Assembly: GCF_018873765.1 (NCBI RefSeq)
Contig: NC_057920.1
Span: 11,111,307 to 11,175,306 of the forward strand
Reading direction: 5' to 3'
DNA length: 64,000 bases
Source of the DNA: Telopea speciosissima
Lineage: Eukaryota; Streptophyta; Magnoliopsida; Proteales; Proteaceae
A program made the position numbers and the translations under genes. Below, in pieces: positions 5,902 through 63,176 of the stretch (position 1 is its first letter; every line of letters starts with the position of its first letter). The notes beneath the pieces were generated by a model. The model did no database searches. It saw only the letters and a program-made list of their open reading frames with translations, and was not told where the DNA came from.

Positions 5902-8632
5902 ATGCGCCGTTGCCGGAGAAACAGAGAAATCCCTAATAGCCTGAAACTCCCGGCGGAAACATTTTGTTTCTTCAAGATCATTCTCCATGCCAATATTCGA
6001 TATCAACGGCTAGTAATCTCTCTCTCTTTCTCTTATGTACTCTGGTTTTTATTTCTGATATTTATGATGATACTTTAGAAATATGTTGTACATTGTAGAA
6101 ATTCTACTGTTTATACTAGTGTTGATCTGTTAGTTCACAATGAATCATGAAGTTCTGATCCATTCAGAGAAGGGGATGGAAGAATTCTTGCTCTGAGTTC
6201 ACTACTAATTTTGAAAGTAATGCTGGCTGAAGCGTTCTTGCGTGCAAAAAATTGATTGAGGTGGAGATCAACCTTTGAAGAACTCCTCCACCAATGCCAT
6301 TGCATTCTAAGTTTTGTCGATCCAGTATTGTAAGAAATTTAAAATAGGTATCCAAATTTTTTATTTTTGCCAAATTTATGTAATCATGTAAGTGATTTGA
6401 TTTGATTTCAAGAGCAATTACAATATATTTTTTCAGGGGTAAATAAGAGTTCTCTTTGATTTAGTCTCATTTATATATTTCAGTCCATAAATTTTCTTTT
6501 ATTTTGATGATTATTTCTTGTCACCTCTCCCCCCCCCCCTCCCCCCTAAAAAAATCAATATAATAACAATTAGGATAATACAGAGCAACCCAGTGCACGA
6601 GGCTCCTGCTACTGCAGGGTCTGGGAGGAGCAAACGTATGCAGCCTTACCCCCCTGCTTCGCAGGATAGGCTGTTTTCGAGGTTTCAACTAAACAATTAG
6701 GATGATAAGTTGAAAAAAAAAAATCAATTACCATAAATTGATATAGTGATCTGTTGAGTTGGTAGATATCACCTTATTATTCTATATCAATTTCAATGTG
6801 TCAAGATTAGAAAAATTGTTTTCTCCCTCCCAACATTAATCACTGAAAAGTGCCTAAAATCATGCTTTATGATCTTTATTATTTGTTTGGATATAGCTGC
6901 AACTCACTAGGTGTTGTCCCAACCATTTCCATGAAGTAACTCTTATTTATTCATCCAGACCACTGATGCAAGTTGTTATGGTGGGACATTTAGCTACTGC
7001 CATGTTTACAGAAAATTGAAGTACTCCTGCTAGAAAGCATTGAAGACCTTTATTACAGTGCCAGCATCAGTAGATATCTATTTAGAATTGTCTAAGATTA
7101 GAGAAGATAATCCTTTTTCCTTTTATAAATCATATGAAACTTACTTGATTTCCTCCTCCTCCCCCCCTCTCTCTCAGAGGATTCCTGTAAAGTTTATCAG
7201 GGAATTCAGAGACGAACTTTCCAACATTGCAGTTCTCCAGGTTCCCAGTGGTAAAATCTGGTCTATAGGATTAAGGAAATGCAATGAGATGGTTTGGTTT
7301 GATACAGGCTGGCAGGAATTTGTAGAATATTATTCTATACTCGAGAATTACTTTTTAGTTTTCAGATACGATGGGAATTCAAAGTTCTATGTTTCTATAT
7401 TTGATACAACGACTTGCGAGATAGAATATCCATGTGATACTATGGATTTTGAAGAAAACAATCCTAATGGTGGATGTAAAATTGAGGAAATCGAAGAGCA
7501 GTCCTGTAAAGAAATCTTTGATGTTCCTCCAAGGCGAAGCCACACTACTGCTGCTTCAAGAAAGATGATGAGTGATGAACTAGAAGAGCAACAGATTTTG
7601 AAAAGTAGAGGTAATCCATCATCTCCATGTATTACATACTCTTGGCCCATATAATGCAGTTTGATGAGTTGCAAACTATTTCACATAATTTGGGCTACAA
7701 ATACGCAGAAAGAAGTAGTTTGAGGCTGCAACAAGAAGAGAATGAGAACATGCCTGCTGCTCAAAGGTGTGTGCTTGCAAAGGATTCTATTATGGCCCGG
7801 GAAAGTGAATGTCAGCTTCAAGCAGCCACCACTTTCAAGTCTACAAACCCTTTCTGCACTGTGAAAATGCAGCCATCTTATGTGTCTCGTGTTTTTAGTT
7901 TGGTGAGCTTCAAACTTAAACTAGATCGAAGTTTGAGAATGGGATAGTCGTCATTCATCATATATTATACTGCTTTCCACTTTTATATTGGACTAGTGAA
8001 GCAAACCAAATATCATCTTTGTGGGTAGAACACATACATTTCCTTGCAGAAGCAGGGGCTTAAAGATTCATCCCTAAACCTTTTTTCAACTTGTTTCTGT
8101 TGTATTCGTAATCTAACAAAGTTCAAACATTCAATTTCTATGATTTCTGCAGAATGTGCCGAGAAGCTTTGCCAGGACATTTGTGACAGGGACCTATGAG
8201 GAAGTCACACTCCAGGTTCCAGATGGAAGAAGGTGGCATGTGTGCTGCTGCCCTTCATCTGGAGGCGCCACCAAGGTAACAAAGGGGTGGAAAGTGTTTG
8301 TACAGGAGAATAATTTAGAAGAAGGTGATACTTGCATCTTTGAGCTAGTTAAGAAGAGCCCTATTGAGTTGAAAGTGTTCATATACCGACTCACTGAACG
8401 TGGCCGCACAAAGAAATTAGGTAAGTCTGTGGTTGCATTTGACTGTAACTATAAATAGTAAATTTAGAAATAATTAAAAAGACAACTACTTATACAAAAT
8501 TGAATAAATTATAATTAATGATGTATAGAGATAATACACAGTTGTAAATCACATCCTTGTTTCTTCAACAAATACAATGTGGATGCAGTAACTACAGATA
8601 TGGGTATTTTTTCTTATGCAGCTGAAGACTGA
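5902..8632 (+). CDS. REM-type B3 transcription factor with two B3 domains, gene B
   Basis: Predicted nuclear DNA-binding protein of 338 aa. Exons by hand: 5902..6012, 7178..7610, 7709..7902, 8153..8420, 8622..8632, with phases that all agree and GT-AG introns. The start is ATG 5902 (MRRCRRNREIP); the upstream in-frame TTG is not used. B3 domain 1 (about residues 22-122) carries FFKIILHANIRYQRL, RIPVKF, VLQVPSGKIW, GWQEFVEYYSI and FLVFRYDGNSKF. An acidic linker (EEIEEQS) follows. B3 domain 2 (about 225-330) carries NPFCTVKMQPSYVSRVF, NVPRSFARTF, VTLQVPDGRRWHV, KGWKVFVQENNLEEGD and CIFELV. The last exon adds only AED and the stop. Exon 3 must begin at 7709 (98-nt intron) to keep frame; a closer AG at 7659 would shift it. 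A diverged copy, gene C, lies 9.4 kb downstream with the same exon sizes. The intact frame suggests a working gene; targets are unknown. Confidence 0.88.
6582..6690 (-). mobile_element. Au-type SINE fragment (intron 1 of gene B)
   Basis: The minus strand reads AAGGCTGC, the CCCTGCAG core and GCCTCGTGCACTGGGT, the conserved 3' half of the plant Au SINE as I recall it. The tRNA-like 5' head is degraded (near CCTCGAAAACAGCC). A poly-C tract (6528-6546) lies just outside. Confidence 0.65.
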
Positions 8633-8639
8633 AGAACAA

Positions 8640-10400
8640 TATAAATGTCAATGTTGGATCTGGTTGCAAATTAGATCGAGGCTAAAGATTTTTGTGGAAG
8701 GATGCATCATTTTTGCCAATGATATGATTCCACAATCTCACTGAAAATTGTGGTAACTTTTTATCCTTAATGTATTTCAGACGAGAAGCTACCATATGAA
8801 CCATGTAGTGATAGTAATTTCAATTCCTATGGGCACTTACAATATCTACTAAACAAAAGACTTGGCTCTGAGCTAGATTTGATCAATACCCAACTTTTTC
8901 TCCCTTTAATCATCTTCCATATCTGATATTGATTGAATTCTATTTTCTAGTTTTTAGACCATTAGGTCCACAGTGACAGGGTAACAAATAAGATTTAGGG
9001 TGTGATGACCATGAGAATTGAGAAAGTTACAGATATTATATATACAGAGTCTGTTAAAAGGATAATTGATTAATTGTTGGTCTAACAAATGGGTTATTGC
9101 TATCAGTCATCAATGGATATGGTGGTCATCACAGTGGTTCTTGAATGCTTCCTCCCTCTTGATAGGTGTGAGCATTTCTTAGAAGATGCTTCAATGGGGA
9201 TATTTGTATATGGCATAATGTAGAGCAAACTTTCTTTAGTGATAGTAGCATTCTATTTAAATCCTGAACTGGATCTGGGTTAAAGTTATTTGGATAATAT
9301 TTTGTAGGGGGAAACAAAGAACCCTCCATTCTATAGAGTACAATAGAAGAGAAGTCAGTCTATTCATGTATATGGTGGACATAATAAATGGGGGTGCACA
9401 CATGCATTTTTTTTCAACTGCAACCTAAAATATGGAGGAATGACATTAGAGTTGATGGGAGGCTTTTATGATTAGAAATGACAGTTTATGAAAATGTCAG
9501 CTTTCTCTTTGCCCAAATAACCATGTTGCATATCAATTGGAACTGAAATTTGTGTAGATAGATTGCAAGGTCCTTGATTCAAACAAAGATTCATCCAAAC
9601 AGAGATTGCAATGGCAAAAAAAGCTTAGAGAATCTAGTATAAAAAATATGGGTAAGAGTTTGTTGTGTGGTCTTGTAGTGCCTGCAACAGCACGAGGGTG
9701 AATGAGAGCGCACGTACGGGCATAATCACAGATCCGATTTTTGATTTCATAGGGGGTTTGGGGGAAAAGGTGCTACTCTGTCATGCTCATGTCTCTAGTC
9801 GCATAAGCCACTCACAGGTAGCATTCTTTTTTCTCAAAAAAATAAAGGACAGTTTTCCTCCTCCTTTAGAGGATGGTTCACCCACCATCCAAGGGTTCGC
9901 AGACCCTAATAGGGTTTTAGTATTTTTCCCAAAAAGCCCTCGTGATGTTCTTTCCTATCCCCGCTGTGAATGGGATCTCATTCCCCATGTGTGGAAGAAA
10001 ATGTAGTCCAAAATTAAAACTACGATTAAAAAGAAATGAATTACTGAAAATACGATGGTAAATGCCACTACAAAGGAGGGTGTATATTTGACTTTGTTAA
10101 GTAGTTAGTTAATCGAAACAAAAGAAGAGACATGCTTCCTCGACCTTTACTATTCCTTGCAAGTTGCAACTAAAGGGGAGTCTTTCAAAAATTTCACTTT
10201 CCTTCTCCATCTCTAAGTAAACCAGAGAGTGAGTGCAACAAAGGCCAAGGTAATAAAATTTTTGAATTTAACTACAGTTCAGGAAATTATGCCATTAACG
10301 CATTCACTAAGTTTCCCCACCAACCAAACAATTGTAAATGAGCAGTTCATTGATGTCACTTGGAGGGTTGGATGTGGCTAATTTGCCCATGTCAATATGT
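8640..10400. other. 3' flank of gene B shared with gene C, no gene
   Basis: Non-coding. Much of 8640-9640 recurs in the same order after gene C (about 19290-20250), for example the tract with TTCTTAGAAGATGCTTCAAT, so the B/C duplication extends about 1 kb past the stop. A diverged repeat (about 9835-10005, with GAGGATGGTTCACCCACCAT) recurs inverted at about 29340-29480. Confidence 0.6.
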
Positions 10401-10409
10401 TAAATTTTC

Positions 10410-11924
10410 GGGCAAATTTCACAGACACCCCCTATAACTATTCGAAATGGTAAATACACCCTAAATTTTATTAAAATATCAATTTTCCTCCTGACGTTAA
10501 GCAAGGTTACCTCCAAAATTAAAATGTCGATTTTACCCTCTTAATAATTTAAATACAAATGACTAAGATTCCATCATCTTCCCAAATCGAACTTCCTCAT
10601 CACCACCACTGTCTCTCCGACCGCCACTGATTTTACTTCCACAGGTTATCTCACCACCACCACCACCACCTTTCTTTCCGGTACCGCCGCCACTGATTTT
10701 AGTGCCCTGAAAGCTGGTGATGGAAGAAGAGTCTCTTCTGAAGCACTGCAACGGCTTAGGCAAGCTGTGGGCGTCGTCGTATAGAAAGCCATTACCAACT
10801 ATTTTCGCTCCTCTCCTCACTGCAACAGCTAAGTCGCCGTAGCCGGAGCAGGTGATGGTCTCCTTTTCTTTTAAGCTTGCTCCACTGGTTGCAGGTGAAG
10901 ATGTGTCCTATTTGGTTCATCTTCTCCCCCCTTCTGGTTCCCCCCTCCCTCCCCCACCACCAAATTCTTTCTTTTTCGATTTTTTTTTGGTCTCGGCTCT
11001 TCTTCTCTCTTCTGAATAGAAATAGTATGAATTGATGGAAGTTGGTTACAGTTGAGGCATACTGTTTTAAGATCATGGGTTCTTACAGGAAAGCTAAGCT
11101 TGCTGTTGATGCCTTTCGGGGCTTCGCTTCGAGGATCATAACCCGAGCTCCGATTGGAGAGGCAAGCCAGGGATTCAAGCGCCAGCCTCATTCTTCGATT
11201 TCTGGAACTGGGAACGCTAGGACTTTTGGCCTTTCTGGTTCATCCTTGATTTCCTGGAGAACAAATCTTCAAATTGGAGGGAAACAGAGTCATCACCTTC
11301 CCTTTCTTGGCTATGGGAAGAGATTCTACTATGTAGATCGGTATCGAGTTCAGCATTTCAGACCCAGAGGCCCTAACCGATGGTTCCAAAAACCACGGAT
11401 CGTGCTCGTTGTTGTTCTTGTCGGTTCAGGTGTGTTGATTACTGTTTACTTTGGGAGTTTGGAGACAATTCCTTATGCAGGACGGAATCATTTCGTGCTT
11501 TTGCCGAAGAGGATTGAGAGGCAGATTGGAGAAACTCAGTTTCAGCAGTTGAAGGCTGAGTTCAAGGGAAAGATCCTTCCTGCTATACACCCTGAGAGTG
11601 TTCAGTTGCAAATGCCTCTGCTTCATCTCACTGATAATCAACTGGGTATCTTCCAATCGCCCAAACCCTCTTTCTAAGTTCCTCTCTGGTTTGTATTTGG
11701 GATATTGGGGATTTAACCTTAAGGGTATAATAGAAAGTTCACCCTATGGTAAGGGTAATTTTGTCATTATAAAAGAGTTAACAACCACTTAACTTCACAG
11801 ACCTAACAGAGTGGACTAAGTTGAAGTAAAAATATAAAATAAGGGTAATTTGTGTTATTTTGATAAAATTTAGGGTGCACTTATCATTTCCAATAGTTAT
11901 AGGGATTGTCCGTGAAATTTGCCC
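10410..11924 (+). mobile_element. Pack-MULE (Mutator-like transposon with captured host gene sequence)
   Basis: A 1515-bp element. The left end reads GGGCAAATTTCACAGACA and the right end is its inverse (TGTCCGTGAAATTTGCCC). Homology between the ends continues inward for roughly 75-90 bp (CCCTATAACTATT, then CACCCTAAATTTTAT). The flanks are TAAATTTTC (10401-10409) and TAAATTTTA (11925-11933), a 9-bp target duplication with one mismatch, as expected for Mutator-like elements. No transposase is present. The interior holds an OMA1-like exon fragment (11075-11677) and an unidentified GC-rich segment (about 10560-10900). This is the classic architecture of a Pack-MULE. Confidence 0.88.
11075..11677 (+). 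pseudogene. Captured N-terminal fragment of OMA1-like mitochondrial metalloprotease
   Basis: ATG at 11075 opens a 200-codon frame beginning MGSYRKAKLAVDAFRGFASR, an Arg-rich presequence-like start. It continues with RFYYVDRYRVQHFRPRGP, then a hydrophobic segment (IVLVVVLVGSGVLITVYFG) and GETQFQQLKAEFKGKILPA. From memory this matches the N-terminus of plant OMA1 homologues (peptidase family M48, inner mitochondrial membrane). The similarity stops near IHPESV, after which the frame runs through unrelated residues to TAA. The zinc-binding HExxH protease domain is absent, so it cannot be an active protease. It sits inside the Pack-MULE. It could still encode a small membrane-anchored mitochondrial protein, which is untested. 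Confidence 0.82.
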
Positions 11925-11939
11925 TAAATTTTATTAGGT

Positions 11940-13280
11940 ATGTGAGTATTGTTGTAGTCTGGGGCGGTTACTATAATTGAGAGGGTGTTGTAGTGGGTTG
12001 TTCTACTAGTTATCCTAAATGGTAGGGGTGGTTAACCATGGTGGATAGTTACTCGAGTTCGGTTCCTTTGCATGTACCAACAGGTGAACATACATGTGAG
12101 AGCCAATCACCTGTTATATTTTTGCCATTTACAAGGGGAGGAGAGGTTTTTATGGAAAGAAAATTAAAATGTGATTGGCTTTGAGATGTACGTTCACCTG
12201 TTGGTACGTGCAGATGATCCATTCGCTAGTTACTTGCAATTGTGTTGTTTTTAGGATTGTTATGTAATGGAAAGACATCTCCATGGGGATCAAGTTGTTG
12301 AACCCAAAAATCAAAACATAATCTTTTGTATGAGGAGGTCGCCTTTATACGGTAAAATTTCCTTTCTATCCCATCTCTCTTATTCTAAAATATGCAACCG
12401 GTACTTATCAAGTGGTATTAAAGCATCAGGTACTAGACGAGGTCAAGACTTCCTAGTGTAACGCTCCACACACACACCACTAGCATGATAGTGTCCGTTT
12501 TGACCCATGGGCTTCATGGTTTCAAAAGGCCTCATGCTAAGGTGGGGTACTTGAGATGTGGGACTAAAGTTTGCACTCCCTCGACAATTTCTTAAACTCT
12601 TTGGTACTATGTCCTTTTTTTGTAGGACCTCTCAACAATCTTCCAGACTGACCAGTACTATGCCGTCCCTTGGTGTCATACCCAATCTTCCATGTTTTAC
12701 TTTTAAAGAAAAAGTTAGGGGATGGCGTCCATGGTCACTGCACCTTATCTATCTTTGTTACAAGATTAGGATTTCATGAACATCCTCAAGCAATCCTTGA
12801 TAGCTGAATGAAAGAAAGAAATCCTTATTCATGGAGTGGCTTATCTCCTATAGTAGCAAGGTGGGAAGAGCTCGAAGATATCAAGAAGCAATCTACAAAT
12901 TTGGATATTGAGGACAAGCCCGAATTTTAAGGAGGAAGCCAGGAAGGAATGTTACGTGATAGATTAGTGTGTGGGTGTTGTTGTAGTGTGGGGCAATTAC
13001 TATAATTGAGGGGTGTTGTAGTGGGTAGTTCTAGTAGTTATCCAAAATAGTAGGGTGGTTAACCATAGTGGATAGGTTACCCGCAGTAGTATTGTTTTAG
13101 GGTTGTTATTTTAATGGAAAGACATCTCCTTGGGGGATCAAATGTTGAACCCAAAGTCAATCCCAATCTTTTGTATGAGGAGGTCACCGCTACCCAACCA
13201 AATTTTCCTTCTCTCCATCTCTCTTGTTCCAAGATACGTAATTGATACGTATCAGTGTGGTATCAAAGTAGCCGATCCTC
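11940..13280 (+). mobile_element. LTR retrotransposon fossil with two direct LTR-like repeats
   Basis: Two direct repeats start near 11944 and 12960 (both with GTAGTGGGT.GTTCTA.TAGTTATCC, then GGAAAGACATCTCC and CTTTTGTATGAGGAGGTC). Each ends in a TGGTAT.AAAG motif resembling a primer-binding site for initiator tRNA-Met. The internal part is only about 530 bp with no recognisable protein, so the element is internally deleted and non-autonomous. It is broken. The first repeat is interrupted by a small MITE and the 3' side by a TIR element. Confidence 0.55.
12070..12211. mobile_element. MITE inserted in an LTR-like repeat
   Basis: Terminal inverted repeats of about 40 bp: GCATGTACCAACAGGTGAAC on the left and GTTCACCTGTTGGTACGTGC on the right, then AGCCAATCAC against GTGATTGGCT. 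It is absent at the matching place in the second LTR-like repeat (around 13080), so it inserted after the two repeats separated. Confidence 0.72.
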
Positions 13281-24200: not shown

Positions 24201-25335
24201 TATGATGGATAAAGGAAGCTTACAAGGAACTCTTGCTACGTCCACGCCCTTGCCCAGAAGCTCCACCTCTCAGAGTTTTCCTTGCACTGCTGTCCGACCG
24301 AGGAGCTCTGAGGCAAGTTAGGGGAACCATCTCTTCAACCGCTCGAAAGCTGCAAACTTTTAAGATAATTTCCTGCTTCTCCTGCTTCTGCACTGGATCG
24401 ACAAGCTCGAACAAACAAATGTCATCTTCCTCTATGTTGTTTTCGAGATCAAAATCAGCCCAACCCTTCGAAAACGTTCCACCAACAGGGTTTTGTCTAG
24501 GTTTAAACATGACAATCTTTTTATGGTCTTCGCAGCAAAGAGTGCAATATTTTTTCTTTGGAGGAAAATGCTTCAGAGCGAAGTCGTAAGGAATCGTCTA
24601 CAAATACAACAATTTGGTAGATTAGGGAATAAAGTTACAAAGATGCATAAACCAAAGAAATAGAGCTCAGCTTTATAGTTACCAACTGAAATCCTCTATA
24701 AACATGGGACTTTCGCATGACGACCAAGAAGCTCCCATTCGAGGAAGTAGCAAAGGCTTCGTCGGCCAATTGTTGGATTTTTTTCTTTTCTTCTTCAGTT
24801 GTAGGCCGTCTACCAGATTTATGTTCACGAACACTTGAACTTGAAGTTCGATGGCGGAATTTCACCTGATTCTTCTAATTCATCACCTGAAGAACAATCT
24901 CACCTAATTCATCACTAAAAGCCGAACCTTCCAATCGAACAATGGAGAAGCAAATTAGAATTTCAGAACAGAAGACCACAAACTGAATTACAAAAACAAA
25001 TATATTAGAAGGGAAGATAAACAAAAGGAAATTGGTACCAGAACTAGAAGATTCGTGCTCTTCACTCCTAAATTTCTGTTTCACAGTGACGGTTCTAGTG
25101 CTCGGACAGTATCCCAACCCTTGCAACAGGAGCTTCAGAGGGAGTATGTTGAGTAGATGGTTGCAGCGGCAGCGTTGGGTGTGGCTTCACCCTGTCGCTT
25201 CGATGCTTCTTCGATGATGTGGGTGCTCCAAATAGGTTGGGTGAACGAGGGGCTGAAGGTGAAACTTCCTCATAATCGTCCCAGGTGACGTGGCAGCCTC
25301 GACGAAAAAACGAACAAGCTTTCTCACAGAAGCTT

Positions 25336-26205
25336 TAAAAAACGGTGTATCCAATGCACAAAGCTCCCGCCACCGCGAGGTCTAGAAAGGGTCATAATGT
25401 ACGCGGCCTTACCCCTGCTGTAGTTTTGTAATACAATGTATGGTCTTCTGTTTTGTAATTCCGATTTGCTTCTCCATTGTTCGATTGAAAGGTTCGGCAT
25501 TTAGTGATGAATTAGGTGAAGATTGTTCTTCAGGTGATGAATTAGATGAACCAAGTGAAATTCGACCGTCGGGCTTCAAGTATAAGTGTTCGTGAACATA
25601 AATCTGGTAGACAACCTGCAACTGAAGAAGAAAAGAAAAAAATCCAACAACTGACAGACGAAGTCTTTGCTGCTCCCTCGAATGGGAGCTTCTTGGTCGT
25701 CATGCGAAAGTCCCATGTTTATAGAGGATTTCAATTGGTAACTATAAAGCTTAGCTCTACTTCTTTGGTTTATGCATCTTTGTAACTTTATTCCATAATC
25801 TACCAAATCGTTGTATTTGTAGCCGATTCCTTACGACTTCGCTCTGAAGCATTTTCCTCCAAAAAAACAAATATTGCACCCTCTTCTACGAAGGCCATAA
25901 AAAGATTGTCATGTTTAAACCTAGACAAAACCCTGCTGGTGGAACGTTTTCAAAGGGTTGGGCTGATTTTGATCTAGAGAACAGCATAGAGGAAGATGAC
26001 ATTTGTTTGTTAGCTTGTCGATCAGAGGCGAGAGGAGCAGAAAATTGTCTTAGAAGTTCGCATCTTTGGAACGGTTGAAGAGATGGTTCCCCTGACTTGC
26101 CTCAGAACTCCTCGGCCGGGCAGCAGCGCAAGTAAAACTCAGAGCGGTGGAGCTTCTAGACGAGGGCGTGATCGAAAATGGGTCATAATGTACCCAGCTT
26201 CACAG
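25336..26205 (+). pseudogene. Inverted duplicate of the 3' half of REM gene H
   Basis: The plus strand repeats the order found on the minus strand at 25030-24220: DELGEDCSSGDELDE-type linker, SVREHKSGRQPATEEEKKK, NGSFLVVMRKSHVYRGFQL (exon 25546-25740), then the second-B3 C-terminal exon (about 25822-26150). That last exon carries indels relative to the minus copy, so it is not translatable throughout. An Au SINE piece (about 25350-25425) sits at the left junction, and GGGTCATAATGTAC occurs near both junctions. It interrupts exon 2 of gene H. Confidence 0.72.
25350..25425 (-). mobile_element. Au-type SINE fragment at the inverted-duplication junction
   Basis: The minus strand reads GGTAAGGCCGCGTACATTATG and then GCGGTGGCGGGAGC, the typical 3' half of an Au SINE. 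It is truncated at both ends. Confidence 0.6.
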
Positions 26206-26935: not shown

Positions 26936-27167
26936 CATAGTTCTAAGTATCGGTATTGTATTGGACGATACGTATCGATTTTGCTAGTCACTGATAGTAT
27001 ATCGGTAGCACGATAAGGACAAAGAGTAAAATGATTAGAAAACTCATTTTAAAGAATTTCAGGGGTAATTTTGTTCGATATAATCGATCTAGGTCGATAC
27101 CGTATTGATATCGTATAGATTTTATATGTTGCCGATACCCGTTCCAATACCGTGTACTAAAACCATG
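26936..27167. mobile_element. hAT-like MITE, 'TATCGG' family copy 3, with perfect target duplication
   Basis: Flanked by identical ATCGAGGG (26928-26935 and 27168-27175), an 8-bp duplication typical of hAT elements. The ends are CATAGTTCTAAGTATCGGTA and the inverse of CATGGTTTTAGTACACGGTA. The interior is rich in TATCG/CGATA words. 232 bp, non-coding. This copy defines the family boundaries. Confidence 0.85.
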
Positions 27168-27379
27168 ATCGAGGGGCTTTAGCCTTTAGAGGAACCCACG
27201 GTCCAACCAACCATCACCGGGTAACCCAGGACATGTAAGATCTAGCAACCCTTATACGGATCAACAGATCAGGGGCTATGAGAACCATTGTGAATTGTGG
27301 AGATTATAGTGTTTCAGAAACCATTTAAACCAATCTGGTCCAACCAAAATAAGCCCAAAACCAAACTGACCTTTAATAA

Positions 27380-27381
27380 TC

Positions 27382-27422
<41 letters not shown>
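27380..27422. repeat. (GA)n microsatellite
   Basis: About 19 uninterrupted GA units starting after CATATGA. Shorter GA/CT tracts occur near 3967, 35672 and 55061. Confidence 0.9.
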
Positions 27423-27639
27423 CACACATCGTCAACCATCGGGGCATCTTTGTAGTGTGAAAAAATGTGTAATGCATCATCCGATGACCGGGGTATTGGG
27501 CGGTGTGTCCAAGCATTACAGCCCATTGGATGTACGTTGCACATTGTGTCGCACTATAGAAGACCCAAGGACGATGCCCTCCAAGGAGAGGGGCCCAATC
27601 CAAGAAAGAGAGATATAGAATCACCACCATGAATCACCG

Positions 27640-29080
27640 TTGCAACCCTCACTCTACTAGCAATCTTCTGTTGTAATTTGCAACCGAGTCACCACTACAA
27701 CCCTCCCTCTTCAAACCTGCAAAACCTCTCTCTCTCTTTCTCTCTCCATGTCTTCTCTCCGATCAGAAGGTCTTCATTTTGAGCTTAGTCAATGGAGTTT
27801 GTGGCCACATAGAAGTTAATATGAAAATTTTATAATAAACAATTAGGTCATCTCAATATATACTTTAAAAATAGATCTAAACTCGAAACGAAAAACCAGT
27901 GAACAAGTGCTAATAAGGGGTAAATTTTTTATTACATTACTCATGTGAGAAAACCATTATGCTAAAATATAAAGATTGGACTATCAATTGATCCCCATTT
28001 TAAGGTTTGTTGGAAAACTCGTTGTCGGACTTGATTCATAGTTCTTTGTTGTTCAAACTAAATAGTTTCATTTTTTGTAATTTTTTAACCGTTTCAAATT
28101 CTTATAAGTGGAATTAATCAAATTTAATTTTTTTGTTCTATTTTGAAATTTATTTATATTTTATCCCTTTTCTCAAAACTTCGTTCCATGTGGCTTCATC
28201 CTTTTGGGCCATAATTTGCCAATTAGAATGTAGGGCAAAACTGGTCCATAAATTAAGGCTAGTTGCCTCAAAGCAGGAAAACACGCTCCATTGACATACA
28301 AGGCCTAAGGAGACCGAACAAAACTTTTTAGCCCAATATTGCCTCGAAAGTTGACGATCTGGATTTAGTGCTTGGTATCGGAACGGATATCGGGAACATG
28401 TAAAACCGATATGATATCAATATGGTATCGGCGTAGATCGGCTGTATCGAACAAAATTACCCTTAAAATTTCTTTAAAAATGAGTTTTCTAACCATTTTA
28501 CCCTTTATTCATATCGTGCTATTGATACGATATCGATATCGATGACTAATAAAACCGATACGTATCTCCCAATACGGATGATACAATACCGATACTTAGA
28601 ACCATGCCTTAGACAGAACCTAAGAAAAGGCTATGAGCAAGATGAGCTTAAACCCTTTGGCCTATGATTGTACATAAATTCAGCCCAGTTGAACCAGTTG
28701 TGACATTAATTCGTAACACGAGCACTTGCCAACCCTACTTCCCTAACTTGAGTACAAGGGATTTTTGGTTCACCCGGATAAACCAGTTCTGACGTTAATC
28801 CATAGTACGGACACTTGCCAAGCTTACTTTTCCCAACTTGTTTGGGGACAAGAAATTTTTGGTTCACCCAGTCCTTTCTCATGGTGGAGAGAGGGGTCTT
28901 GCTGGGTCATATCTTCTCATGATAGATGAAATCAAATGGTCGCCATCTAGATTTGGGTTTAGGACTCATAAATTTCTCTTTTCTTTTCAAAAAGAGATTG
29001 GTTTCAAATGTAATTAGTCAAACCAATGGTTTGGGTAAGTGTCAAATTACTGATAAACCATATCTAGAAACAGCCCCTCT
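27640..29080. other. Intergenic with one reversed 'TATCGG' MITE (about 28368-28606) and a short direct repeat
   Basis: 28368-28606 is a reverse-orientation copy of the 26936 element, ending ACTTAGAACCATG. Two direct units of about 95 bp (about 28690 and 28785) share ACACTTGCCAA...TTTTTGGTTCACCC with small differences. No gene recognised. Confidence 0.55.
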
Positions 29081-30549: not shown

Positions 30550-33500
30550 TTACACTTTCTTAACTGCTTGGAAAATATGGACATGCATTTCAAACTTACC
30601 CACAAGCTCAAAAACGCAGATATCTGCTTCTTGAAGTTTATTAGCACGTACAAACTCCCGCCAACCTCCACATAGGAAAGTCCTTCCCCTGCTGGTATAA
30701 ACTAAGTTTATTCTCCAAGCTTGGCCTTTTCTGTTCCGAAGGGTAACCTTTCCGTTCTGTTGAATATGACCATGTGTTCTGGCAAATTTGATTGGGATAT
30801 ACTGTGTGAATAATGTTCGATTAGTAAAAGAAGAATCAATAATAATAACAAAAAATTCCTGTTAATAAAAGAATAGCTTGCAACATCCTTGGAAGGCTTT
30901 GAATAGGTGTCATCCATCCTTATTATTAGATATCTCTTTCTTTAACTTTATAGAAAGGTTTAGCACCTTCATAGAGCAGCTGATCCACCTCTGGACTTTT
31001 TAGCTTCCTTTCATTATTTCATATAATGAAATCATGTTGTTCTATCTCAAACGTTTGGACATTGGGCATCGCTCGCCTAATCCAAAACTATAATTACTGA
31101 AATAACAAGAAGCATTGGGAGGGAAGATAGATAGAGAAGTTGAACATTTCAGTACTGCTTTTGCATCTTTCAGAGGTCATTGTGAAATATTTTAACTAAC
31201 TCACATATGAAATCTAGAACCTTGTAAAATATAACAGGAACGATTGTACAAGTGCATTAACATATGCAGGGATGCAACTAATGTCCCATATAGGTGCCAC
31301 GACGTCTACCATGATGGCTTTTAGAAGGTGAATACCAAATTCAACTTTGTGAACTTCAGAGCAATATTGTTCTAAATTTTTCTACCCAGACAATTCTTTT
31401 TAGAAGTCCAAGCAGCACCACAGCTAAACAAGTCAGATACAATAAATCCCACAAAATCTAAATTAAATTCCTCGAGAATAATTGTTAGTACATTGTTGAC
31501 AATATGGGCAGACAGATATAGAAAAACACACATACATGGCAATTAGTTCTGCCAAGAATGCAGCACTATCAATTTTTATCTTGAAGAAAACCAACAGTAG
31601 AATAACTAACAGCGAAGAAATACTTAGGCCTCTGCAGAAAACAAATGAAAGTATAATAAGATGCTACAACCCAAAACAGTGAACCTTCAATTCCCAATTT
31701 TGTATATGAACCAAGAATACTAAACAAAAAATGACAAACCACGTCACCATTTGATATCCAAATACAGACAATCCAATTATTTAGTTCATGGGTAACTTCT
31801 CCACCTCAGCCAGGGACCATCAACCATGTAAATGGAATCCCATCTAGAAGCTTCAATAGTTTTTTTACCTTTTTATCTAATCCTGACCAAGGAATTCTGG
31901 AAAGCTAACACATACTTGGAATATGGTATAAGTATTAATCCAAGCATTCAACCCTAAGATGCTAGGGTTTTCCATTTTAGCTAGCAATCTGAAATATTCC
32001 ACTGGGAACAATAAGCTTGGGTTTCCTGCAGATCTCTACTCTACCTCTACAACGATAAAATATGGGCTGCAAGTTTAAGGCTCCAAAGATGGAGAGTCAA
32101 AGTTGAAACCTTTTTAAAATATTTCACTTATGATCTTAACTGGTCATGAGGTGCTTTACAATGTCCTATAAGATTAAATTGACTCAATCTTTCTACACCC
32201 TAGCCCAGTTTGCAACTGCATCCAACTCTCCCATGTTTGGAGATAGATAGTGCACTGGGAAGTTTTATTACAGAAATTAGTCAGCTAGTTATGTATAGGT
32301 TTGGCTTAATTAAAATGTTGATCATAAGATTGTAAAAAGAAGCAACCAAGTTGCATAAAAACTCACCACAACTCCCCTGGACACATTTGATGTAGTTAAA
32401 CACCTCAAAAAACAAGGAAACTTTGAAGTAAAAGACTTTGCTTCTTTCCAAACTTTTGCCTTTTCTTCTTCACTTGGAGGCCGCCTTCTTGAAGAGGAGC
32501 ATATAGTTTTTGATTGTGGTTCACGGGTCAGCTCAACATTCTCTCTTCTAGCTTTTTTAAGCCCCTTTGGTTTAACAGTTGGAAGGCGTTGCCCTGTTGC
32601 ATGTAAACCAATGCCACAAAAGCATTTATATGGTACCTAGAAGTAAAAATATATTTCTGTACTAGTTCTCACTTATTGGACGAAGCAACATCCAAAAGAA
32701 ATATGAACTGAAGGACTATGAATCAAAAGAATTTTAATTTCTAGATCCAGTCAGTGACTTGTCAAGAGTTCAAAATTCACACATACTAAAAAACTAATGA
32801 AGTTTTGGTAATCTTAGAAACATTTGGACTCAGTATTCTTTCACCCACAGTCCACTTTTGGTGGTTAGATGAGAAACCTGGAGCAGTGTCAAGGGCATTT
32901 CAGACCTTTAAACCATAGGGGAAGTAATTCTGAGATCACAGTGGTGGGTGTATGTTTATCGTGGGTGAAGAAAAACTTTCTCCTAAACATTTTGATTGAT
33001 TAAAATAGAAATATCTGCATGTGCATTCAAATGCAAAAAAGGGACAGTTGCATTTACAGTTAAAGTGGAAAGATATGGCCAGAAATTGAAGAGGTGCAAG
33101 TAATTTTTCGCATTCATACCTGGATTATCTTTACTGTCTTTTTGAACAGAGTCAGTAGAAGTCTTTGATGGTTTATCACATTTCTTAGCTCCATTGGAGA
33201 AGGCAGGTTCTTGATTTGGTTTGGTACTAAACACATAATCTCTTTCACATGCACTCTCATCAAAAATGTTTACATCAAAACACGTATTTCCATCATATCC
33301 AAAGACGAGAAAGTTATAGTCATAGATGGAGTGATCTTTTACAAAATCTTGCCAGCCATCCTCTAGATATGTACCATCTGTAGTTTTATTTAATTTGATG
33401 CGCCAGTGACTACCACTGGAATCCTCTATGGTGGCAAATTTATATGCTTCTGTCGAAATGTGCTCCGCAAAGTCTGGTGGGATCCGCTGCAAGTTATTAA

Positions 33501-49000: not shown

Positions 49001-51260
49001 AGTTAAAGCAGAAAGATATGGCTAGAAATTCAAGAGCTGCGAGTAATTTTTCAAATTCATACCTGGATCATCTTTACTGGCTTTTTGAACACAATCAGTG
49101 GAAGTCTCTGATGATTTATCACATTTTTTAGTTCCATCGGAGAAGGCAGGTTCTTGATTGGGTTTAGTACTAAGCACATAATCTCTCTCGCATGCACTCC
49201 CATCAAAAATTTTTACATCAAAACAAATATTTCCATCATATCCAAAGACAAGAAAATTATGGTCATAGATGGAGTGATCTTTTATAAAATCTTGCCAACC
49301 ATCCTCTATATATGTTCCACTTGTAGTTTTACTTAATTTGACGTGCCAGTGATTACCACAAGAATCCTCTAGGGTGGCAAGTTTATATGCTTCAGTTGAA
49401 ATGTGCTCCACAAAGTCTGGTGGGATCTGCTGCAAGTTATGACAATTAAATAAATGAAGTATTGGTATGGTGAAAACCATCTTCTAAATAAATCAACTTT
49501 CAGAACAATCTCATCATAGCTGCAGAAAAAAACACCTGGGGTGGAGAGAGCATGGATGAATAGTAAATATTTGGTTAGACCATACATGATACCAATAGAA
49601 TCTAAAATGGAGGGGCAAAGAAAATAAAAGCTGCTGGATCCTGTTTTGAGTCCATACAGGGCAGCACAATACACAAATGTTGCTTGGTTAAAATTGTTTG
49701 TGAAACACCATGGGTTAAAAGTTCAGCTACACATAACCGAAAAATAAGGAAAAAGAGAAACTAAGTATTGTACTTCTATATCAGGACTACCTGTCACTGT
49801 TGTTATCGAATCTTATTCGACAATGGAGGAGATCTTGTTCATGTGCTCTTCTCCATCCTGTATTTACAGTTGTCTACTGGGTATTGCATTTGTCCAAATG
49901 GACCAAAAAGACCATGCACTCTTCAGAAACAGGCTGATGAAGTTATAATTCTTCAGTTTCCTTTTCTGCATCTATGCCACCACTGCCTTATGATCAAATG
50001 GTATCTGACTTGAAACTGTTCGGTGTTCTCTGGTCCTAACCAGTGAAAATGGGAGAGTTCCAACCAACACTATGACATCTGGAATTTTACAGGGTGATGG
50101 ATATGTTCAGGTACACATTCTTACAGGTTACAGCACAGGATTTCAATTGGATAGTAATGGAGCTCTGTGAAGAAATTCATAACTGGTAGCTCAGGTCTCC
50201 TTTGCAAAGCATGATCCAAAACCCTACTTTTCGATGGGGCTGATAGGTTGTTATTGGAAAGACATAAAAAATTTCTTTGACATTTTAGGGCAGAAAAGGC
50301 CATTTACTGCTCCTATATCTCCCCAGTAGAGAACAGTCCAAGCTAGTAAATCAAATCAATGAAAATAGCTGAAGAAATATTTTAGTAACTACTCCCCTGA
50401 GCTTCCTTCCTAAATCAAAACCTGGGAACACAATACACATAGATCATCAACATGCAGTCAATGGGTTAAACCAACAAAACCTATGCGATTCCAACCTTCC
50501 CCTTATAAGGATATACTTCTTTTTGTAGACCTATATGAATCTACATTTTTTTCAGACCTATCAAAAGATGTTTAAGATCAGCCACCCAATCTTCCAAACA
50601 CATTCATAGCCATTTTAACAAGAAAGCAAGCTAGCATTAAGAAGGAAACTATGGAAGACATCTGATTCTTAAAGGATGGTTACAATATTCTTTTCAAAAG
50701 AACTCTAAACTAAACCAAAGACCTCTGTTCTAACTGCTAGCAAAATACGGCAAGAATCAACAGGGATAGAGAAAAAAAATAATTTAAGCCCAGAAGATGG
50801 AAATGAAAATAAATTTTTTCTTAAATGTGAGAGACAATAACTACCAACCAATCTTGTGGGAACTCGCGGATACATGATCTTGTAGAAGTAAGGCCTCTCG
50901 TCTGGAGGTATGTTCTTGCTCTTCTTCTCCATTTTTTGTTTTTTTTTTCCAAGCTTTGAGTGTTGTAGATTGCAGAGGCAGCAGTGATAAGAGTTGGAGA
51001 ACAAGCAGAAAGAGAGAGAGAGGGCAAGAGAGGGAGGAGTGAAGTTTGAACAAAAGTGCTAGTCTTAGCTCTTATCAGCTACCAGTGTCCAGCTTTCAGT
51101 TTTGACAGTTACCAGTTTTGGAAGGAAGGTCAACAAATAAATCTGATCAATCCTAACCGTTCGATCATTCTAATCACCTTTCAAAGCTTTCTCTGCACTC
51201 TTCCTAGTGAATGGAAGGGTGGGGTTATTCTAGTAATTTGACGTCGTCTTTTAAAAGAAA
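46005..51260. repeat. Tandem segment 3 (carries REM gene F)
   Basis: Third copy of the repeated segment, from the marker at about 46012 through gene F and its leader. No PPR remnant is visible to its right. It lacks the private insertions of segments 1 and 2. Confidence 0.7.
46533..50932 (-). CDS. REM-type B3 transcription factor with two B3 domains, gene F
   Basis: Predicted nuclear DNA-binding protein of about 317 aa. Exons: 50849..50932, 49063..49429, 48275..48504, 46533..46805. Exon 1 is MEKKSKNIPPDERPYFYKIM to PRVPTRL. B3 domain 1 starts QIPPDFVEHI (Q where D and E have R) and is otherwise almost the same as in E. The linker is KGLEKARREDVER and SSSRRLPATEEEKAK. B3 domain 2 carries FPYFLRRLNASNVCKGSSM, YIPVDFARTH, KVTLWTRKGQAWRVN, GGWPAFVHANKLEEADTCIF and ends FASEEQI. 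The exon 1 donor has a 4-base repeat (TTG|GTTGGTAG), so the in-frame site is GTTGGT while the site matching D and E would shift the frame. All other junctions are normal. It is probably coding, but splicing of exon 1 is the weak point. Confidence 0.8.
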
Positions 51261-60338: not shown

Positions 60339-63176
60339 TTATGTTTCTGAACCCTCAGGGACAGTGGGTAGTCTGTCCCCTTCAACAAACGAAGGGTTAA
60401 GAAACTTGGCCACAAATGCCCACATCTTATACACATCTTGGAAATTAGTTAAAAAGCTAAGGGATGCGGTAACAACCTCAACCCGATGGAATGCATTTTT
60501 ACCGTCTTGGCAGCCATTCATCATTGGTCTGCACAAGGCAGTGTCATCTAGGTCTAAGGACCCACTATGCTGTTTCAGGCTGTCCACAACCCGTATATGA
60601 CTAAGGAAACCAATGCCCAGAGATATGCCATGTTTATCCGCTAGCCTCTGAACAAGTTCTGGGCTAATTAACCCCCCATTACAGTGTCTCACATTGAAAG
60701 CCACAGCTGCACCCCTTTCATATTTGATCTTTGGGCCATAGATGTGAACAAGATGCTTTCCCATACTACCATCTGAACTGGAAAACTGAAGTTGCAGTAA
60801 TGAGGTCACGAGCCAATTGATCAGGTACCGCAATCTGAGGGTAGTTTTGTTGAGACCCAACATATTAACATGGTCAAGATGATGGCATATTATCTCAGGT
60901 TCTCTTCTATCCCACTCTAGGCCATCCTCATCTTCTCCATCACTCAATAATTCGTCATCACCAAGTGTTGTCGCAGAAACTTCTCCAGGCTCAAGGATAT
61001 GACTTCGATGTTCTTTATGGCTGTCCTCCATGCTGAAGGATACCCTCCGACCCATGCTCATAACTCTTTCATTCTCCTCCACCCCAAAGAATCTACCTCC
61101 ACCAAATCTGGTACCTTCCCTCCTTCCCAGCAACCTAAAATCGCCTTCTGTTTCTCTCCTTATTGCACTTTCCTTGGTCTCTTTGCATACTTCAGGGTTT
61201 GAGCCATTTTGATGGCTACCATGCTTAACACCTGAAGAAGAATCTTTGAGTGCAGATCCATTTGCAGTAGAATACAACCTAGAACCAGATAGAGTTGATT
61301 CTTCCTCAATCTCACTAACATGATGAAAATCCGCATCCTTTCCGCCATTCTGTGAAGTTGGATCTGTTTCAGAAAACTGTTCCTCTTCAGGTACTTCCTT
61401 AACACGATCTAATTCCTGTGAGACTGATAATACAGCCGCATCAAATGACAAAACATGCTCTTCATGTGGTCTGAGATTTACTCTACAGTCATCGTAGATT
61501 GGACTCCTAGACATCATTGATGCTGGTTTGGGAGACATCCTATTATGGTTTTTCCTGCCAGTAAACCATGAGGGTGGTAATGGAGAGCCTGGCTTTGTTT
61601 TGTTCAACTGGCCAGAATGGTCAGATCCAAATGGGCTCTGACCCAAATCAATCCAAAATAAGTTGTCCGATGACTCATCTTCACTGAAAACAGGGCTCCT
61701 CATTACTTCTCCAACAGAAATGCTCTCAGCTTCTTCAAATATTGTGCTTGCACCATCCCTGTCAGAACTGTTATCTTGCTCCATCTCGGTCTCAAACACA
61801 TCCCTCACCTGTGCAGAAGTGAATGCACCAGAAAAAGCAGGCAATTGTAAACCACGGTGAGTTTCAGGTGTCAATTCTTCATTATCGTCCATCCCTTCAT
61901 CTTTAATTCCGGTCAATCCGTCCAGATCATCCACCGAATCACTCAAGTACTGAGGGTAAACAGGCACAATCCTCACCATCCCAGACCCAGTGTTCACACA
62001 CTGACTTTGCAAGCTTCCCATGACAGATTTCTTAATCAGGAGACAACCAAAGCCAGTAGGATCAGACCCAAATACCCTGTAAAACGATGTTATGATAAAA
62101 TCTGGCCGGAAGAGAGACAAGCCGAGTGAATCCATGTCCTTGGGACCCAACGACCCAGCATCAAGCAAGACATGCCAATTGTTCTGCTGCGCCAGCGCCA
62201 TCCATTGGTAAGAATACTTGGCTCCAGTGACCCTCGACTGGACAGGGAACACGAAAAGCCCAACTGCAGAATCCTTCTTCCTCCTTTTTTTGTTGGAGAT
62301 TTGCTTTTTCAGCTCCATGGAGCAAAGTTTCAATGTCGGCCACTTAAACCAAGCACTGTAAGTCTTAGCACCTTTCTCTTTCGCACTCTGAGCCATCCAG
62401 TTCACAGACTGGCTCTCATAGTCAAACATTGTCAGCAACTTCTTGTTCGTCTGGAAAGGATATGATTCTGCTAACAATTTAAAAGCAGAACCTCTACTGA
62501 CAGTGAACACAAGGCCGTATTCATTCTCAGGGATGTTCAAGTAATCCATTATCCTAGTCTTTATATCGTGTTCCGCAGTGCCTTTATCGGCTCCACCATA
62601 GAGAGCATGGTTGCTCAAGTTTGCAGTTATCTCAGAAAGGCTAAAGGCACAAGACTCCCAATACTGAAGGGTCTGAAGATAAGAAAAGAGCCCAAAGCCA
62701 CAGTAATCAAGACATACCTTGGCAACCAAATCAGAGAGGTGCCCGTACTCGTCCGATCTCAACTGGTCGATCTTCTCGGAACATTGAAACTTGGGGTACA
62801 TGGTGAGGAACTTGGAGAAGGCTTCATGGATGTCGGGAATGGAGTCTTCAGTCTCGAAGGTTCGTTCAGCAGCAAGGGAGGTGGCACGAAGGAACTCCCG
62901 TTGTGCGTGGAGTCTGGCGAGTGATCTCGACCTGCCGAAGCTCCCATCTTGATTGGAGAAGGACTCAGAATCCATATCTTGCGATTTGACGAGTGACCCA
63001 TCTTCTGATGCTTCCTCAAGAGCCTCCCTGAGCTTGTTCTCCTGTAACTGCCGGAGGATCGAAGGTTTGCCCTTGCTGCTTTCCTCCGTCAAATCCAATC
63101 CATCTCTCCTCCTACTCTTCTTGTCAAGGATTAAGGACGCACAGTGGGATATAGGCTTCCATAGTGAAAGATGCAT
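60339..63176 (-). CDS. Molybdenum-cofactor-sulfurase-like protein (PLP-transferase fold), plant-specific clade
   Basis: One uninterrupted exon of 945 codons. The start ATG 63174-63176 opens [20 protein letters not shown], the conserved opening of this plant family as I recall it. An N-terminal Ser/Glu-rich region includes [20 protein letters not shown]. The aminotransferase class V-like domain (about residues 140-400) carries [77 protein letters not shown] and [18 protein letters not shown]. Residue 367 is Arg where MOCOS-type enzymes have the PLP lysine. A long acidic, low-complexity middle part follows. The C-terminal domain carries [43 protein letters not shown] and [17 protein letters not shown]. 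There is no MOSC domain. Related to MOCOS/ABA3 but probably not a sulfurase; cellular role unknown. Length fits the family. Confidence 0.9.

Follow-up and report, generated by a model that had tools for sequence, protein, structure and literature searches.

The locus at 10410-11924 of the window, the whole stretch of 64 kb that was analysed, holds an open frame resembling the N-terminus of the mitochondrial protease OMA1, and it raises the question of whether this frame is a gene, a pseudogene or the cargo of a transposon. The evidence below makes it almost certain that the locus is a non-autonomous Mutator-like element (a Pack-MULE), which moved after it had captured pieces of several genes, and the 200-codon frame inside it looks like a remnant.

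Ends of the element and its target site

The element occupies 10410-11924, an interval defined by terminal inverted repeats (TIRs), a target site duplication and the lack of any transposase match. These three features had been described in the sequence-only reading, and all were recovered. The duplication (9 bp, no strand) reads TAAATTTTC on the left (10401..10409) and TAAATTTTA on the right (11925..11933). Comparison of the flanks gave 8 matching bases of 9, with the one mismatch that had been noticed, and the target site is of the TAAATTTT type. The inverted arms measure 81 nt (10401-10481 and 11853-11933) and are 86% complementary. Since the outer nine bases of each arm are the target duplication, the TIRs proper extend over 10410-10481 on the plus strand, starting with GGGCAAATTTCAC, and over 11853-11924 on the minus strand. 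They are 72 bp long and match at 63 of 72 positions. The account of tomato Pack-MULEs set the minimum TIR length at 50 or 100 bp, gives 9-11 bp for the target duplications of MULEs and also mentions terminal repeats as promoters (PMC3310237).

None of the nine listed frames of at least 50 codons within the element matched a transposase in Pfam. A 211-codon frame had CE2_N as its sole match, below threshold; the remaining eight of these frames were free of any protease or transposase domain. The element thus has the features of a Pack-MULE: long TIRs, a 9-bp duplication, no transposase, host fragments with parents elsewhere and movement as a unit. The Pack-MULEs of rice are said to have been described by Jiang et al. 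in 2004. They are likewise reported as non-autonomous MULEs with host gene fragments inside (PMC13317346, PMC3310237). The present family differs from them in species and donor genes and is described from one assembly only.

Captured host gene pieces

The OMA1 fragment lies at 10906..11603 on the plus strand and contains upstream (presumed 5' untranslated) sequence and the first 176 codons, with 96% identity to a parent gene at C1:75.23 Mb. The insert of 698 bp ends mid-exon within exon 1 of this parent, at 11603, which agrees with the predicted match to exon 1 and its abrupt end near 11600. In the parent the open stretch runs on past the capture point to a total of 332 codons and has a Peptidase_M48 match of 43.1 bits (cut-off 20.3); the proposal of a Pack-MULE with an OMA1 N-terminus is upheld by a parent that reads on into the protease domain. 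At the element itself no OMA1 gene continues past 11677: the capture stops at 11603 and is followed by an antisense PPR piece and element sequence. A second M48 match is located 32 kb downstream of the first on the same strand (C1:75.20 Mb), read through three stops. It lies perhaps across an intron, and its membership in the same gene is only putative. A homologue on C6 was ruled out as the parent, with 79% identity and an interrupted frame in exon 1. Downstream of the OMA1 exon 1, reverse-transcriptase-like frames were recognized by eye on the reverse strand of L031 (about 6822-8394). No Pack-MULE carrying OMA1 was found in the literature searched.

OMA1 had been proposed as the cargo; it is one captured gene and does not stand alone, because at least three donor genes contributed and a fourth is probable. 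Judged from these alignments, the interior is a mosaic of OMA1, an aldo/keto reductase gene family (two pieces) and a PPR gene, probably together with a HIPP-like piece. The PPR fragment (11597..11663, minus strand) consists of 67 identical bases antisense to a gene at C3:49.96 Mb, which has a 497-codon open stretch with PPR matches. The 7 bp at the OMA1/PPR junction (AGTGTTC, 11597-11603) are common to both parents.

The two aldo/keto reductase pieces have opposite orientations. The first (10697..10863, minus strand, antisense) matches C1:81.99 Mb at 97% over 167 bp and corresponds to an inferred exon 1 region. The second (10859..10903, plus strand, sense) covers an inferred intron end and the start of the next exon; it is 100% identical over 45 bp to C5:18.95 Mb and 96% to C1:81.99 Mb. 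The C5 frame has an Aldo_ket_red match. The exon 1 frame at C1:81.99 Mb had no Pfam match, and because the C1 reductase frame contains a stop this locus may be a pseudogene. Parts of the reductase pieces are also matched at C1:85.96 Mb and at two C4 loci, so that the pieces are assigned to the gene family, with several matching loci as candidate donors. A weaker call is the probable HIPP-like fragment (10632..10691, minus strand, antisense), a Gly-rich sequence of low complexity with 85% identity to a C8 gene; the left junction of this fragment (L054 position 1241) is the same in two siblings of the element. The C8 gene has an HMA match of 21.4 bits, below the curated cut-off of 24.8; we take it to be HIPP-like from its appearance.

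Capture from mRNA is thought unlikely, because the OMA1 piece starts before the coding region and the inferred intron end falls within one of the reductase pieces. Template switching during gap repair is a model proposed for other Pack-MULEs. In the present element the pieces would have been added stepwise by such switching at the DNA level, and a MULE transposase supplied in trans would then have moved the composite.

The orientation of the pieces bears on a possible effect on the donors, namely that transcripts or small RNAs of the element reduce the expression of at least one parent gene in trans. We consider this unlikely, albeit with several points in its favor. The element and the OMA1 locus have 353 21-mers and 324 24-mers in common, with a longest run of 122 bp; with the C6 homologue the element has 17 21-mers in common. 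With pieces in opposite orientations, a transcript of either direction would be antisense to at least one parent. An account of maize transposable elements with captured sequences, Pack-MULEs included, presents them as siRNA reservoirs able to silence donor genes, but also states that purifying selection may remove the silencing of essential donors (PMC13317346). It seems highly improbable that the element family serves as a shared antisense source, which co-regulates unrelated genes in trans via one set of small-RNA loci. If this were true, transcripts of one direction would be antisense to OMA1 and one reductase piece; for the opposite direction the antisense targets would be the PPR gene, the remaining reductase piece and the HIPP-like gene.

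Five copies and the 200-codon frame

The protein search gave 14 matches (all 16 candidates were scored). These represent five composite copies and a partial one at C1:81; the remaining matches are the parent on C1, the homologue on C6 and the PPR match on C3. The composite with the OMA1 insert is present at five places, on C5, C8, C9, C2 and C7, each with its own flanks; the copies have the same ends and the same PPR and reductase junctions, and different flanking duplications. Pairwise K2P distances among them are 0.050-0.067, and their tree is nearly star-like; its internal branches are short and have support values of 0.60 and 0.81. The copies may have spread in one burst soon after the capture and have been decaying since. 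With the parents known and five copies available, the order and timing of the capture and the silencing of donors become testable.

Three copies contain further insertions (C9, C2 and C7). Those on C9 and C2 each have a nested stretch that is bounded by a separate pair of inverted arms, whereas on C7 an insertion is accompanied by a duplicated stretch. The nested stretch on C9 (L035 2308-3874) is a different inverted-repeat element inside the OMA1 element; it carries BLOC1 subunit 2-like pieces, with two BLOC1_2 matches above the cut-off. The search for an empty site found no full-length paralogue of the left flank among the best 40 of 1365 candidates, only a dispersed repeat, and thus demonstrated no empty site. 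This repeat (9844-10015, about 150-170 bp) has at least 42 other matches at 73-90% identity among the best 40 candidates.

The open frame of 200 codons on the plus strand (11075..11677) was confirmed from its ATG at 11075 to its stop at 11677. It consists of 176 OMA1 codons followed by 24 that derive from the antisense PPR piece and from the element itself. Over the 176 codons at its start the alignment with the OMA1 gene has no gaps. The OMA1-like content attributed to the frame holds for this part, including the N-terminus, the YYVDRYRV and FRPRGP stretches and a hydrophobic segment (a putative presequence and anchor), and fails for the last 24 residues, which are not OMA1. The protease domain is missing, as claimed; Pfam gave no protease match.

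The frame is open in two of the five copies, the window element and the copy on C9. In the others it is broken, by two TAG codons on C2, by a TGA and a 2-base deletion on C8, and by a TAG and a rearrangement on C7. For the substitution test the majority state of the five copies served as the reference for the 176 OMA1 codons. A change common to two copies was counted separately for each of them, gaps were disregarded, and C7 was represented by one of its two duplicated stretches. Against a neutral expectation of 0.668 : 0.296 : 0.036, the five terminal branches contain 35 nonsynonymous changes, 20 synonymous changes and 4 stops. This Ka/Ks check gave an omega of about 0.77 (p 0.38), which does not differ from neutrality in a test of little power. 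The window branch alone has 6 nonsynonymous and 4 synonymous changes and no stop. Ten neutral changes are free of stops in about 69% of sets, so that the intact frame in the window is unremarkable. The majority state differs from the parent at 7 coding positions (3 nonsynonymous, 4 synonymous, no stop), a ratio that would also fit weak constraint.

These data also bear on the idea that the frame is a young chimeric gene encoding an OMA1 N-terminus that is targeted to mitochondria and anchored in the membrane but lacks the protease domain, and that perhaps interferes with OMA1. The intact frame with its N-terminus and hydrophobic segment would suit such a gene, as would the open C9 copy and an omega point estimate below 1. 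However, the frame is broken in three of the five copies, omega is not distinguishable from 1, and the stop-free window branch is an outcome to be expected without selection. We therefore find this explanation very hard to credit, and the functional new membrane-anchored mitochondrial peptide that had been suggested is unsupported. In terms of its sequence, the frame looks like what is left of OMA1 exon 1; no selection on it was detected, and it probably has no function as a protein. The reading that no transposon is involved, and that a partial OMA1 pseudogene lies by chance between inverted repeats, has the OMA1 homology alone on its side and is refuted by the recurrence of the composite at five places, each time with these ends and with the PPR and reductase junctions but with other flanking duplications.

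The element family in the genome

The Pack-MULE in the window belongs to a large set of elements with the same TIRs, as had been expected. The assembly searched has 1287 contigs and amounts to 822.9 Mb; nearly all loci were found on C1-C11, and C1-C10 have 64-88 Mb each. With up to 3 mismatches allowed, a 32-base end pattern detected 309 forward and 306 reverse termini, 615 in total, while the reversed control gave 0 + 0. If the termini pair, the family comprises roughly 300 elements.

With strict ends, 14 of the 17 elements with both ends located have target duplications matching at 8 or 9 of 9 positions; among mismatched flank pairs, the control, 4 of 272 reached at least 8/9. When the ends were shifted by up to 3 bases, 16 of 17 elements reached 8/9, a count that has no control. 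This comparison omits L038 and L047, in which the pattern found one end only, and L039, which is the PPR gene and not an element. L045 and L046 have common flanks and are not independent, and A or T runs occur among the duplications (L034, L045, L046 and L049).

Siblings without OMA1 share the left end (10410..10636, plus strand, about the first 227 bases) and the right end (11685..11924, plus strand, about the last 240 bases). The interior of most siblings is unlike that of the window element. Two siblings match the window element over the first ~284 bases; one of them, at C2:24.25 Mb, contains 959 aligned bases of the C8 HIPP-like gene with 92% identity. Of the OMA1 piece, the sibling at C1:81.25 Mb has just the final 58 bases, adjoining the same PPR piece, and its interior includes a different PPR-like piece with a PPR_2 match below the cut-off. 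This structure suggests stepwise replacement of the captured sequence.

PF10551 matches numbered at least 150 (the best 150 of 827 candidates). No autonomous partner was found among these 150 listed MULE domains; the nearest is 41 kb from any of 99 listed termini (of 615), a list that lacks one terminus listed on C302. Eight MULE-domain loci (L023-L030) had no matching terminus within their 3.3 kb, with a best result of 12 mismatches of 32. An 8.6-kb inverted pair on C4 (L051) was rejected as the partner, since it resembles a non-autonomous sibling that has grown through the nested insertion of a retrotransposon. The latter is copia-like by eye, with direct repeats of about 1 kb. No target duplication was found for L051 (best 5/9).

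The tomato PM-ZIBP family resembles the present one in that a single captured fragment was amplified to many copies, 14 (13 + 1) in the published account, which gives AT-rich duplications of 9-10 bp and sizes of 0.9-1.4 kb among the entries tabulated (PMC3310237). In that account 13 of the 14 copies have tandem terminal repeats and a fragment of a zinc-ion binding protein (PMC3310237), whereas in the present element the terminal repeats are single and the donor genes number at least three. The Pack-MULEs of sacred lotus are of the same element class, with 1,447 elements reported, at least 10 of them expressed (PMC4053705). Nelumbo is, like Telopea, a member of the order Proteales, and the comparison with lotus concerns the element class only. 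A limited literature search for Pack-MULEs in Proteaceae met just one work, on lotus, and we claim nothing wider from it. A Pack-MULE family with 615 termini and clear multi-donor capture is now documented in a Proteaceae plant; the family is otherwise as expected of Pack-MULEs.

Other inverted repeats were observed in the window. A short foldback (12047-12234) with 75-nt arms at 76% and a 38-nt spacer lies just downstream of the element. A long imperfect inverted repeat at 24243-26170 is foldback-like (arms of 96-351 nt at 85-92%), and a 1.5-kb stretch at 26993-28534 between inverted arms of 119 and 61 nt, both at 82%, is possibly another DNA transposon. In three window frames (7040-7654, 32983-33492 and 49022-49480) the match to a B3 DNA-binding domain exceeds the Pfam cut-off, which indicates several B3 genes or gene fragments. 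On the minus strand, an open frame of 945 codons at 60339-63176 had no Pfam match at E 0.01; by eye we take its product to be molybdenum cofactor sulfurase-like.
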